Source: an uncultured Clostridia bacterium (GTDB lineage: Bacteria; Bacillota; Clostridia; Oscillospirales; Acutalibacteraceae). Taken from it: a DNA stretch of 64,000 bases. The DNA is taken from assembly GCA_947589485.1 (NCBI GenBank), contig CANQBK010000002.1, positions 1 to 64,000 on the forward strand, in the 5' to 3' direction. A program made the position numbers and the translations under genes. Shown piece after piece: positions 7,558-57,652 of the stretch (positions are counted from its first letter, which is position 1; every line of letters begins with the position of its first letter). The notes below the pieces were generated by a model, which ran no database searches, was not told where the DNA came from, and saw only the letters and a program-made list of their open reading frames with translations.

Positions 7558-7908
7558 CTATATAAGAAGATACAAAAGCGCAAGCATTAGGCTGTTGTCG
7601 GATTTTTCGTCCATAAGCAGTAAAATAAGACTCAGTATAAGCGTTTTTTCCTTATCCTTAAACAATGCTTCAAAAATACCGCTTTGTTTGTCTTTTCTTG
7701 GTTCTCCGCGAATCGATTGACGAGAGAAACCGCCGCCGTTATTGTTGTTGTTATTATTGCTGTTATTGCTCATCTGCGGCTCTTGCCGTACTTCTTTGGG
7801 CGGCGGTACTCTTGACGGAGGGACGGGAGCGGGTCTTGCCCTGTTTTGCATTTCTCTTGCACGTCTTACAGCCTCCTGCTGCATTTTGAGCATTTCGCTT
7901 TCTGTCAA
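7558..7908 (-). CDS. Small hypothetical protein with poly-Asn tract and hydrophobic C-terminus
   Basis: 116 residues, TTG start with GGGTGAT just upstream. The N-terminal 25 residues form a charged helix (MLKMQQEAVRRAREMQNRA), then a Pro-rich and Asn-rich linker including seven or so consecutive Asn. The C-terminal 30 residues are strongly hydrophobic (ILSLILLLMDEKSDNSLMLALLYLLI) and could be a helical hairpin at the membrane. No enzyme motif is visible. It is the last gene of a three-gene cluster of small proteins with 8019..8381 and 8385..8540. The function is unknown; such clusters occur in spore-forming Clostridia, but a sporulation role here is only a guess. Confidence 0.65.
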   Translation of the reverse strand: MTESEMLKMQQEAVRRAREMQNRARPAPVPPSRVPPPKEVRQEPQMSNNSNNNNNNNGGGFSRQSIRGEPRKDKQSGIFEALFKDKEKTLILSLILLLMDEKSDNSLMLALLYLLI

Positions 7909-8018: not shown

Positions 8019-8381
8019 TTACTTAAACAGTTCTATACCGGAGCTTTTAAGAAGAGGAAGCATACGAATCAATCCCAAAAGTCTTATTGCCCCGTCAATT
8101 TTTTTTGCACGTTCATCGTGCATAAACGGTTTTAATGCACGCAAAAGACGAATACTGTCATCATCGCTCCTTGCCGACTGAAGCAGCGGCGCGAGCTTCA
8201 TAACGGTTCCGATCATTTCGGTATTTAAGGAGTCGCCGATGCTGTTTTCTTTAATAGGATCCGGCTGGGCTCTTTGTTCATTTGTATCCGACTGTCCCAG
8301 CAGCCCCGCAAGACCCTTTATTTGTTCCATTGTTTCGGGATTCCCCAGAAGCTCGCTTATTTTTTGGGACAAATCATCCAT
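8019..8381 (-). CDS. Small conserved helical protein (unknown function)
   Basis: 120 residues, starting MDDLSQKISELLGNPETMEQ, with GGGAGAAAAG upstream lying inside the end of the preceding ORF. It is predicted to be nearly all helix: two amphipathic segments (IKGLAGLLGQ; MIGTVMKLAPLLQSA) and a C-terminal RAKKIDGAIRLLGLIRMLPLL. It has no signal peptide and no catalytic motif. The start is four bases past the stop of the 51-aa ORF, so they are translationally linked. The N-terminal pattern resembles a protein I associate with Clostridia only as hypothetical. Confidence 0.7.
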   Translation of the reverse strand: MDDLSQKISELLGNPETMEQIKGLAGLLGQSDTNEQRAQPDPIKENSIGDSLNTEMIGTVMKLAPLLQSARSDDDSIRLLRALKPFMHDERAKKIDGAIRLLGLIRMLPLLKSSGIELFK

Positions 8382-8384
8382 ATA

Positions 8385-8540
8385 CTACTTTTCTCCCATC
8401 AGCTTTTTTATAATTGCCTGTGCTTGCGGTGATTTCAGGATTTTTTCGGTTTGAGCTTTATCCGAAAGAATCTTTTCCACCTGCTTTTGCTGCTCCGGCG
8501 ACAAATTATTGAACATTTTGTCCACACTGTTTTTATCCAT
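8385..8540 (-). CDS. 51-aa conserved-looking protein, first gene of the small-protein cluster
   Basis: This ORF is too short for the supplied track. ATG at 8540 has a strong GGGGGTGA site seven bases upstream. The product reads MDKNSVDKMFNNLSPEQQKQ, continues with a helical, Lys/Gln-rich segment and ends LMGEK; the stop is at 8385-8387. The sequence resembles the N-terminus of its neighbour in size and style (short helices separated by SPEQ or NPET turns). Strong ribosome site, tight spacing and coding-like composition argue that it is real. Confidence 0.7.
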   Translation of the reverse strand: MDKNSVDKMFNNLSPEQQKQVEKILSDKAQTEKILKSPQAQAIIKKLMGEK

Positions 8541-8599
8541 AAGATTCACCCCCTGTAATTATTTATGCCGGCAGATTCAAATATATGTTGGAGGTAAAT

Positions 8600-9094
8600 A
8601 TGAAAATTATTGTTGTTTCTGATTCTCACGGAAACGTTGATGAACTTTCCCGAATTGTATTAATGAACGGTAGTGCCGATATAGTTGTTTTTTGCGGTGA
8701 CGGTTACCGCGATATACAGTCTGTAAGAGGAATGTATCCCGACAAAATGTATGTTGCAGTTAAAGGCAATAATGATTGGTACTGTAACGAACCATATTTG
8801 CAGGAAATAAAAGTGTGCGGAAAGAAAATTATAATTACACACGGTCATACTTACGGAGTCAAGGAAGGTTATTACAGAATAGCAAGTTACGCCCACTCGG
8901 TAAATGCCGATATTGCTCTTTTCGGACATACCCACTCACAATATTTGGATTATGACGGGCGAGTGCTTCTTATGAATCCCGGTTCAATAGGATACAAAGG
9001 TGAACACGGAATTATCGAGATAGAGGACAGCGGCAAAATAACGGCAAAAATTTACCCCGCCAACCAATTCAATCCGCCGATTACCATTCAATAA
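8600..9094 (+). CDS. YfcE/MJ0936-type metallophosphoesterase
   Basis: 164 residues from ATG 8600, with GGAGGT five bases upstream; the track start at 8585 precedes that site. All calcineurin-like metal motifs are present: SDSHGN (DxH), CGDGYRD, GNND, THGHTYG, and FGHTHSQ with NPGS after it. The family hydrolyses phosphodiesters using two metal ions; physiological substrates are usually unknown. It is cytoplasmic and stands alone, divergent from the small-protein cluster. Confidence 0.9.
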   Translation: MKIIVVSDSHGNVDELSRIVLMNGSADIVVFCGDGYRDIQSVRGMYPDKMYVAVKGNNDWYCNEPYLQEIKVCGKKIIITHGHTYGVKEGYYRIASYAHSVNADIALFGHTHSQYLDYDGRVLLMNPGSIGYKGEHGIIEIEDSGKITAKIYPANQFNPPITIQ

Positions 9095-9127
9095 ATAATA
9101 AAATTAAAATTCGCTGTAAACTGTGTC

Positions 9128-9187
9128 ATTATTACACATTATATCATAAGATATACGGGAGATGATATAATGTGTAATAATTTTTTT
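9128..9187 (+). promoter_or_regulatory. Perfect 20-bp hairpin enclosing the start codon of the SOD-like gene
   Basis: ATTATTACACATTATATCAT (9128-9147) is the exact reverse complement of 9162-9181, with a 14-base loop AAGATATACGGGAG. The loop holds the ribosome site GGGAG; the ATG at 9170-9172 is inside the 3' arm. Seven T follow the stem. The structure could therefore be a terminator of the upstream phosphoesterase gene, a translational switch for the SOD-like gene, or both. Confidence 0.75.
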
Positions 9188-9619
9188 ATGCACCCAAATG
9201 CGGTTGCGTGTATAACGGGAGGGGAAGAAGCTCCCGATATTAAGGGCTGTGTACAATTTTTTCAGAGATGCGGAGGAGTTTTGACAGTTGTAAATGTTTC
9301 CGGACTGCCCGAAGAAAACGTATCCGGCTTTTTTGCTTTCCATATTCACGAAGGAAGCGATTGTACGGGTGAAAGATTTGAAAATACAAAGAGCCATTAC
9401 AACCCCGAAAATGTCCCGCATCCGGAACATTCGGGAGATTTGCCGCCTTTGCTTTCCTGTAAAGGAAAGGCATTTATGGCTGTCTTTACTAATCGTTTTT
9501 CGGTAAAGGAAATAATCGGGCGCACGGTCGTAATTCATAGCGGAGCCGATGATTTTGTTACACAGCCGTCAGGCAACGCCAAGGCAAAAATCGCCTGCGG
9601 AGTGATACGTAAAAGTTGA
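9170..9619 (+). CDS. Cu/Zn superoxide dismutase-like protein, cytoplasmic form
   Basis: 149 residues without a signal peptide. The Cu/Zn-SOD ligand set is recognisable: HIHE at 58-61 (two copper His), HYNP at 76 (bridging His), H84, H87 and D90 in PHPEHSGD (zinc), and VIHSGADDF with H123 (fourth copper His). C65 and C143 could form the family disulfide. Bacterial SodC proteins are normally exported, so an intracellular version in an anaerobe is unusual. It may scavenge superoxide, or may have become a metal-binding relative. GGGAG eight bases upstream supports the ATG at 9170, which sits in a long hairpin. Confidence 0.82.
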   Translation: MCNNFFMHPNAVACITGGEEAPDIKGCVQFFQRCGGVLTVVNVSGLPEENVSGFFAFHIHEGSDCTGERFENTKSHYNPENVPHPEHSGDLPPLLSCKGKAFMAVFTNRFSVKEIIGRTVVIHSGADDFVTQPSGNAKAKIACGVIRKS

Positions 9620-35945: not shown

Positions 35946-35987
35946 TGCCGAACAGGGTCGGCGTCGTTATGGAATTGTTTATTTAAA

Positions 35988-36029
35988 AATCCGTACAAAC
36001 TCTAATACACGGCAGAGTTTGTACGGATT
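35988..36029. terminator. Bidirectional terminator between converging genes
   Basis: A perfect 16-bp inverted repeat AATCCGTACAAACTCT/AGAGTTTGTACGGATT with a 10-base loop lies between the kinase-like gene and the glycosyltransferase gene. AT-rich tracts flank both sides. Confidence 0.8.
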
Positions 36030-36077
36030 ATTATTATATTTAAAATATTTTTTAAGAGGTAAACAGCTTGTTATATC

Positions 36078-41780: not shown

Positions 41781-41795
41781 ACCGGTATATACGGC

Positions 41796-41836
41796 AAAGG
41801 CGAACCATACCTTTTATTTGGTATGATTCGCCTTTT
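41796..41836. terminator. Bidirectional terminator after the vanZ-like gene
   Basis: AAAGGCGAACCATACC pairs with GGTATGATTCGCCTTTT (one mismatch), with an 8-base T-rich loop, between converging genes. Confidence 0.85.
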
Positions 41837-41840
41837 ATGT

Positions 41841-42689
41841 TTATTGTGAAAGTGCAGGAGAATTACAGTTTGCGGTAATATAATGAATAAGGTCATCTTT
41901 TAAAAAGTCAAAGCTTTCATTTCCGCATTTGACCGGTTGCAATTTTGCAAGATTGACCTTATCGCACAATGTATATAAAGCGGAAAGAAAATACAGTTCG
42001 TCCGTACAATCCGGTTTAATTTCAATATATTTTACGGGAAACTCCGGATAATATTTAGTTATAACAATTCCTTTTGTTGAAACAAGAGGTTTATATGAAG
42101 TAAAAATCAAGGAATCCTGATTGGTAGGCAGACGGACTTTGATTTTCGAGGGACATATTAGTATATTGCATGGAGAAAGTCGTTCAAGCGAATTACTTAC
42201 GATAGGTGAAGCACCGATTGTATTCATAAGTCTTTCTGATTCATTTTCGTAAAATCGTGGCATATTACTTACCACAGTAATATTTGATGTATATTTAAGA
42301 AGTTTTTCAACAAATAAAGGATATTCAGCTTCCGGGTCATAGAATGATATTTTAATATCGTTAGAATTATCGCAGCATTTTTTTAAAATATCGCACACAA
42401 AATTTTCCATCATTATGATGTTAAATTCGTTTCTGTCAAATCTTTTAAAGGGGGTAGCTTTTAGAGATATATCATCGCTGCAAAGGATTGTTTTTGATTC
42501 TCCGATTGTATGGTCGTATATTTTATTGAATTTTATACCGCCGCGGTATTGCTTATAGCATATATTCAGTATGGAAATATCGCCGTTTGAAACTATTTTT
42601 TTTGTAATTTTGTAAGGACGGAAAAAAGATTTTACCTTTTGTTTTAAGTCCTTGCTGTATATTTTTTGCACATCTAAAACCACAAGCAT
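41841..42689 (-). CDS. Hypothetical protein (282 aa)
   Basis: 282 residues starting MLVVLDVQKIYSKDLKQKVK, with GGTGA upstream. It lacks a signal peptide and membrane helices and has no motif that I recognise. Mixed alpha/beta composition; the central part (ITVVSNMPRFYENESERLMN, NTIGASPIVSNSLERLSPCN) with alternating hydrophobic strands could be a Rossmann-like domain. It lies between the vanZ-like terminator and repeat block 3. Probably lineage-specific. Confidence 0.65.
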   Translation of the reverse strand: MLVVLDVQKIYSKDLKQKVKSFFRPYKITKKIVSNGDISILNICYKQYRGGIKFNKIYDHTIGESKTILCSDDISLKATPFKRFDRNEFNIIMMENFVCDILKKCCDNSNDIKISFYDPEAEYPLFVEKLLKYTSNITVVSNMPRFYENESERLMNTIGASPIVSNSLERLSPCNILICPSKIKVRLPTNQDSLIFTSYKPLVSTKGIVITKYYPEFPVKYIEIKPDCTDELYFLSALYTLCDKVNLAKLQPVKCGNESFDFLKDDLIHYITANCNSPALSQ

Positions 42690-45084: not shown

Positions 45085-45122
45085 AAACACCCTGCAAGAC
45101 TTCAAAATCTTGCAGGGTGTTT
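45085..45122 (+). terminator. Terminator of the padR operon
   Basis: A perfect 15-bp stem AAACACCCTGCAAGA/TCTTGCAGGGTGTTT with an 8-base loop. Confidence 0.9.
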
Positions 45123-57581: not shown

Positions 57582-57600
57582 AAATTTTTCCGAATATTTA

Positions 57601-57652
57601 AAATACCGAACGCAGGGACAAACAGCTTGCTCCTGCGTTCGGTATTTTACGT
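57601..57652 (+). terminator. Terminator of the MBOAT-ACP operon
   Basis: A perfect 16-bp stem AAATACCGAACGCAGG/CCTGCGTTCGGTATTT with a 15-base loop; T residues are built into the 3' arm. Confidence 0.9.

Follow-up and report, generated by a model that had tools for sequence, protein, structure and literature searches.

A hairpin enclosing a sporulation-type promoter motif as a probable read-through lock on a clostridial superoxide dismutase gene

We suggest that the perfect hairpin over the start codon of a Cu/Zn superoxide dismutase (SOD) gene, found in the 64,000-nucleotide stretch of clostridial DNA analysed here (the window), is a read-through lock, a reading to which we would give a probability of about 0.68. 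RNA reading in from the YfcE-like phosphodiesterase gene upstream would carry both arms and fold into the 20-bp hairpin, which would hide the start codon and leave SOD untranslated from such RNA. In a sporulating cell, one of the mother-cell sigma factors, SigE or SigK, would use the -10 element CATAAGAT and, because the predicted start at about position 9159 falls inside the loop, the gene's own transcript would lack the 5′ arm, form no hairpin and present a free ribosome site and start codon. Hairpin formation would be restricted to read-through RNA. The hairpin, the motif, the controls on specificity and the difference in energy between the two RNAs come from sequence and computation, and are set out below.

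The hairpin and its genes

A 20-bp perfect hairpin over the start codon had been described in the earlier note and is borne out here (Table 1). The two arms are exact reverse complements over 20 bp, with G-C at 3 of the 20 pairs, and as perfect arms reached at most 10-12 bp when the window was simulated 12 times with a first-order Markov model, arms of this length are not a product of chance. Folded alone, the stem-loop has an energy of -20.7 kcal/mol (z -7.8 against shuffles). The remaining positions given in that note also stand: GGGAG lies in the loop (9157-9161), the ATG (9170-9172) in the 3′ arm, and a run of seven T follows, its first T (9181) being the final base of the arm. When the 91-base region was searched against the whole genome, no second copy came up, so the element is not a dispersed repeat, and a mobile element was likewise ruled out. 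Rfam held no match to a known RNA family at the hairpin site, and that candidate was rejected. Other strong inverted repeats occur in the window at 57599-57649, 35984-36033, 41787-41844 and 45085-45122, with arms of 18-25 nt that are 80-95% complementary.

Table 1. Features at the SOD locus of the window.
Feature	Positions	Strand	Basis or remark
YfcE-like phosphodiesterase gene	8597-9094	+	likely source of read-through RNA
-35 position, TGTCA	9124-9128	+	placed from orthologue logo
Hairpin 5′ arm	9128-9147	+	predicted to be missing from RNA of the gene's own promoter
Predicted mother-cell sporulation -10 element, CATAAGAT	9145-9152	+	orthologue logo, motif enrichment
Hairpin loop, 14 nt	9148-9161	+	
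Ribosome-binding site, GGGAGATGAT	9157-9166	+	counterpart of GGAGGTGAT in orthologues
Predicted transcription start	9158-9160	+	about 7 nt past the -10 element
Hairpin 3′ arm	9162-9181	+	start codon within
Extended -10 look-alike inside the 3′ arm, TGATATAAT	9163-9171	+	rival promoter
Cu/Zn superoxide dismutase gene, 149 aa	9170-9619	+	Pfam and PDB matches
T7 tract directly 3′ of the stem	9181-9187	+	candidate weak terminator for upstream transcription

The gene under the hairpin, previously called Cu/Zn-SOD-like, is confirmed as such by its matches to Sod_Cu (Pfam PF00080, E 3e-27) and to SODs in the PDB (E down to 7e-17). In an alignment of seven SOD sequences, the metal-ligand histidines and aspartate (H58, H60, H76, H84, H87, D90 and H123) are invariant, as is the cysteine pair C65/C143. 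The proposed mechanism also suggests that this SOD is a spore-associated protein, like SodA of C. difficile (PMC3789822). The genome encodes SpoIVA, above cut-off, and its best hits for SigE and SigK are homologues that score just under the curated cut-offs. A 6S RNA is also present in the window, on the minus strand at 1949-2140 (Rfam RF00013, 63.6 bits).

The upstream gene matches Metallophos_2 (Pfam, 3e-25) and exceeds the cut-off of NCBIfam TIGR00040. It is co-directional with SOD, its stop codon lying 75 nt from the SOD ATG, and no terminator was called in the 34 nt between its end and the hairpin. The yfcE-sod order was seen in one further lineage only (L036/L080), too few for a test, and there another long hairpin, different from that of the window, covers the same site.

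A long stem followed by T7, 34 nt behind a same-strand gene, might also be the intrinsic terminator of the yfcE-like gene, overlapping the SOD start by accident, and the stronger locks found behind co-directional genes (see below) would suit this reading as well. We consider it unlikely. The stem is poor in G-C pairs, its base is A-T and its loop is 14 nt long; in the orthologues, it is the ribosome site that makes up the 3′ arm, with ATG rather than a T tract coming next; and the position of the predicted promoter inside the hairpin would be left unexplained. Termination is nonetheless compatible with a role as a lock, and it is possible that the T7 tract acts as a terminator for the upstream gene.

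A sporulation-type promoter motif within the hairpin

Orthologues of the SOD gene were fetched from 28 of 64 congeneric genomes and from 80 further loci, mostly in the Oscillospirales with a few in the Lachnospiraceae. Nearly all of the roughly 100 orthologue leaders carry the same motif, and the remaining leader sequence has diverged. The logo reads GCATAnn(A/C)T(G/A), followed by a gap of about 5 nt, by GAGGTGAT or a variant of it, and by the start codon. In the window, CATAAGAT sits at the junction of the 5′ arm and the loop and fits the CATAnnnT of mother-cell promoters, with T in place of G ahead of CATA. In C. difficile, SigE and SigK have a very similar -10 in common, with boxes CATATTAT and CATATAAT, and SigK promoters carry AC at -35 (PMC3789822). 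With AC (SigK) or ATA (SigE) at about 16-17 nt as the criterion for the -35, AC was found to be enriched in the orthologues 17-20 nt 5′ of CATA (48%, against 9-30% in other four-base windows), an enrichment that could partly reflect pairing with the ribosome site; the TGTCA of the window matches the SigK-type AC poorly.

We predict that the motif serves as a sporulation promoter of the mother cell, followed by a very short leader, and infer SigE or SigK as its sigma factor. The spacing to the start site was taken from established promoter geometry, and it would leave a leader of only about 11 nt, with the start cutting into the ribosome site. The arrangement TATAAT, 5-12 nt, GAGGTG, ATG is very common in 36 genomes of relatives. 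Since TATAAT holds the same position before many other genes, short leaders appear to be ordinary in these genomes, and it seems usual in these Clostridia for an mRNA to start almost at its ribosome site.

The 3′ arm itself contains TGATATAAT, a perfect TGnTATAAT, from which a near-leaderless mRNA could start within the arm and be translated from the in-frame ATG at 9188. This is the least probable of the readings weighed here: the element has no good -35, the ATG at 9188 has no ribosome site, and relatives offer no counterpart, their starts coming after GAGGTGAT-like sites.

The sporulation-type motif that we favour as the promoter of the SOD gene recurs elsewhere. A strict pattern, GCATANNNTR-N3-8-GAGGTG-N2-9-ATG, which works in relatives with canonical ribosome sites, gave 49 matches in 20 genomes and 51 in 37 genomes, against 1 match of the reversed control pattern in each case. 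Non-SOD genes with the motif include those for CwlD, YunB, YlmC/YmxH and SigK (NCBIfam), and the same layout is found at sigK of the window's own genome. In that genome, a permissive pattern (CATARWAT-GGNG) showed no enrichment, with 9 matches against 9 for the control. The motif was not clearly present in the upstream regions of SpoIVA, and YabG, the intended SigK positive control, was not found in the genus and was replaced by motif-based discovery of sporulation genes.

Further observations came with this search. Within the window, a 51-aa ORF (MDKNSVDKMFNNLSPEQQKQ...) at 8388-8542 on the minus strand stands behind a mother-cell-type promoter, GCATAAATA-n-GGGGGTG, and is the first member of a minus-strand cluster that also comprises 8019-8381 and 7558-7908 and may be a sporulation locus; small proteins resembling it were found through the motif at L176, L180, L182 and L216. 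Near-perfect hairpins enclosing a GCATAnnnT promoter were seen at the non-SOD genes of L152 (around 1501), L184, L213, L220 and L197. One non-SOD hairpin reads CACCTCCGG-catacaata-gCCGGAGGTG and lies ahead of an M14-type peptidase gene.

Pairing across the predicted promoter and the energy of the proposed lock

In many relatives (for example L108, L060, L068 and L075), the ribosome site pairs with a stretch 5′ of the motif, which itself occupies the apical loop; in the variant found in the window, pairing instead involves the start codon and spares the core of the ribosome site. When 5′ and 3′ leader halves were exchanged among 74 dereplicated species, the chimeras folded more weakly than the native leaders (-11.1 versus -14.2 kcal/mol, z -11), and three control gene sets from the same loci gave z between -1.3 and 0. 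In a scan of the position of the cut (66 leaders, 12 cuts), the effect was strongest (z -8.5) with the cut 8 nt into the motif, near the predicted start. Self-complementarity across the promoter is conserved though the sequence has diverged. The earlier note had held that a loss of pairing in close relatives would speak against its reading of the hairpin as a switch; pairing is not lost in the class as a whole, and it varies widely between species. Two double compensatory changes occur among the L108-type relatives, formal covariation in the small L108 group showed no clear excess over shuffles, and the congener L006 retains 7 bp adjoining the loop, two of them through double compensatory changes (judged by eye from the alignment).

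We define the lock energy as the energy needed to expose the ribosome site and start codon in the long RNA, less that needed in the RNA from the predicted start. Its mean is 6.8 kcal/mol for SOD genes and 5.9 for 58 other sporulation-type genes, against 2.7 for 118 other genes (p 6e-12 and 1e-7, respectively), and it is 2.2 kcal/mol for 26 genes with vegetative TATAAT promoters of matching geometry. When only the upstream 40 bases were shuffled, with dinucleotides kept, the effect was significant for SOD (p 5e-7) and for sporulation genes (p 0.026), and both control sets showed none (0.56 and 0.89). This self-complementarity marks sporulation genes, and not vegetative promoters with matching geometry. 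Among SOD leaders, 28% beat 95% of their own shuffles, compared with 7% of control genes; as only 28% are individually significant, the lock is weak or missing in many orthologues. Locks were stronger behind a co-directional gene than behind an opposing one (z 1.58 versus 0.67, one-sided p 0.011, on crude gene calls; p 0.03 and 0.08 by two other measures), which is what read-through requires.

At the level of DNA, the arms form a palindrome that might serve as an operator for a regulator over the sporulation promoter. They flank the region of the -10 and the start, and the palindrome is perfect in both the window and L108. Yet the arm sequences are wholly different between species, the centre and length of the dyad vary, and the enrichment is specific to the opening energy at the ribosome and start site, so that an operator appears highly improbable.

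In the window, opening 9157-9172 costs 14.8 kcal/mol in the read-through RNA and 2.4 in the RNA from 9159, the predicted start; its lock energy ranks sixth among 65 leaders, and 39 of 40 shuffles of the leader score below the native sequence. The probability that the ATG is unpaired is predicted to be 0.001 at 37 °C and 0.020 at 70 °C. These values bear on the earlier proposal of an RNA thermometer or other translational switch, of which one part holds: because the hairpin occludes the start codon, control would act on translation. The thermometer does not: in silico, the ATG remains paired throughout the range from 20 to 70 °C, and this candidate was rejected for want of melting. More broadly, a conditional switch (thermometer, ligand- or protein-controlled) on an upstream-started RNA that always carries both arms would agree with the occluded start codon, with the ribosome site in the loop and with the conserved self-complementarity. 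Against it stand the pairing of the ATG up to 70 °C, the lack of conservation 5′ of the motif except for a weak -35, the absence of an Rfam match, and the fact that the one unpaired element that is conserved looks like a promoter and appears again at sporulation genes. We regard such a switch as improbable, if less so than an accidental terminator. The earlier note had suggested that the SOD gene may be expressed only when the hairpin is opened; as the conserved promoter element predicts a start within the loop, the hairpin is probably escaped by transcription from inside it instead. Transcripts that begin in the loop and lack the 5′ arm, which the earlier note would have taken as counter-evidence, are what the promoter element is predicted to produce.

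We tentatively propose that mother-cell sporulation genes in the Oscillospirales generally make use of read-through locks, with each lineage rebuilding the hairpin from a sequence of its own, and we hold this wider proposal to be somewhat short of an even chance.

Significance and relation to known systems

Where leaders are very short, there is little space for other control of translation, and where genes are closely packed, there is a risk that spore proteins are made during growth. Placing the promoter inside a hairpin would meet both problems with a few dozen bases, the message being translatable only if a sporulation sigma factor had started it. We infer the read-through RNA and the translational effect, and if they are as proposed, translation would be set by which promoter made the RNA. 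For phage T4 such a mechanism is documented, and for a single Bacillus gene it has been proposed; its recurrence on mother-cell genes of gut Clostridia would amount to a principle of regulation recognisable from sequence alone. Our incomplete coverage of the literature turned up the T4 and sigG cases only, and no regulon-wide version. The principle is known, and its recurrence on SOD and other mother-cell genes across the Oscillospirales appears to be new.

RNA thermometers of the ROSE and FourU type share with the window a translation start within an AU-rich helix. Unlike them, the window shows no melting in the physiological range and no conserved thermometer motif, and it has its ribosome site in the loop and a predicted promoter inside the helix. 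The leaders of the T4 genes e (lysozyme), soc, 49 and I-TevI are closer: a hairpin hides their start sites only when the RNA is long and was initiated upstream, and a late promoter in the 5′ strand of the hairpin yields late transcripts that lack this strand and are translated (PMC3014915, PMC2988022). A hairpin-hidden start and, for the window by prediction, a promoter in the hairpin are common to both, but the T4 element is a phage late promoter and experimentally shown, whereas that of the window is a putative bacterial sporulation-type promoter known from computation only. In B. subtilis, a hairpin of 20 or more bp at sigG (spoIIIG) has been proposed to block translation of read-through from the spoIIG operon, and it cannot form in RNA from sigG's own sporulation promoter (PMC5942855). 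A hairpin that blocks read-through and is absent from RNA of the gene's own promoter is thus common to sigG and to the reading proposed here for the window; sigG, however, is a single forespore gene with a forespore promoter in the Bacilli, while the present case concerns mother-cell-type promoters, at SOD and many other genes, in the Clostridia.
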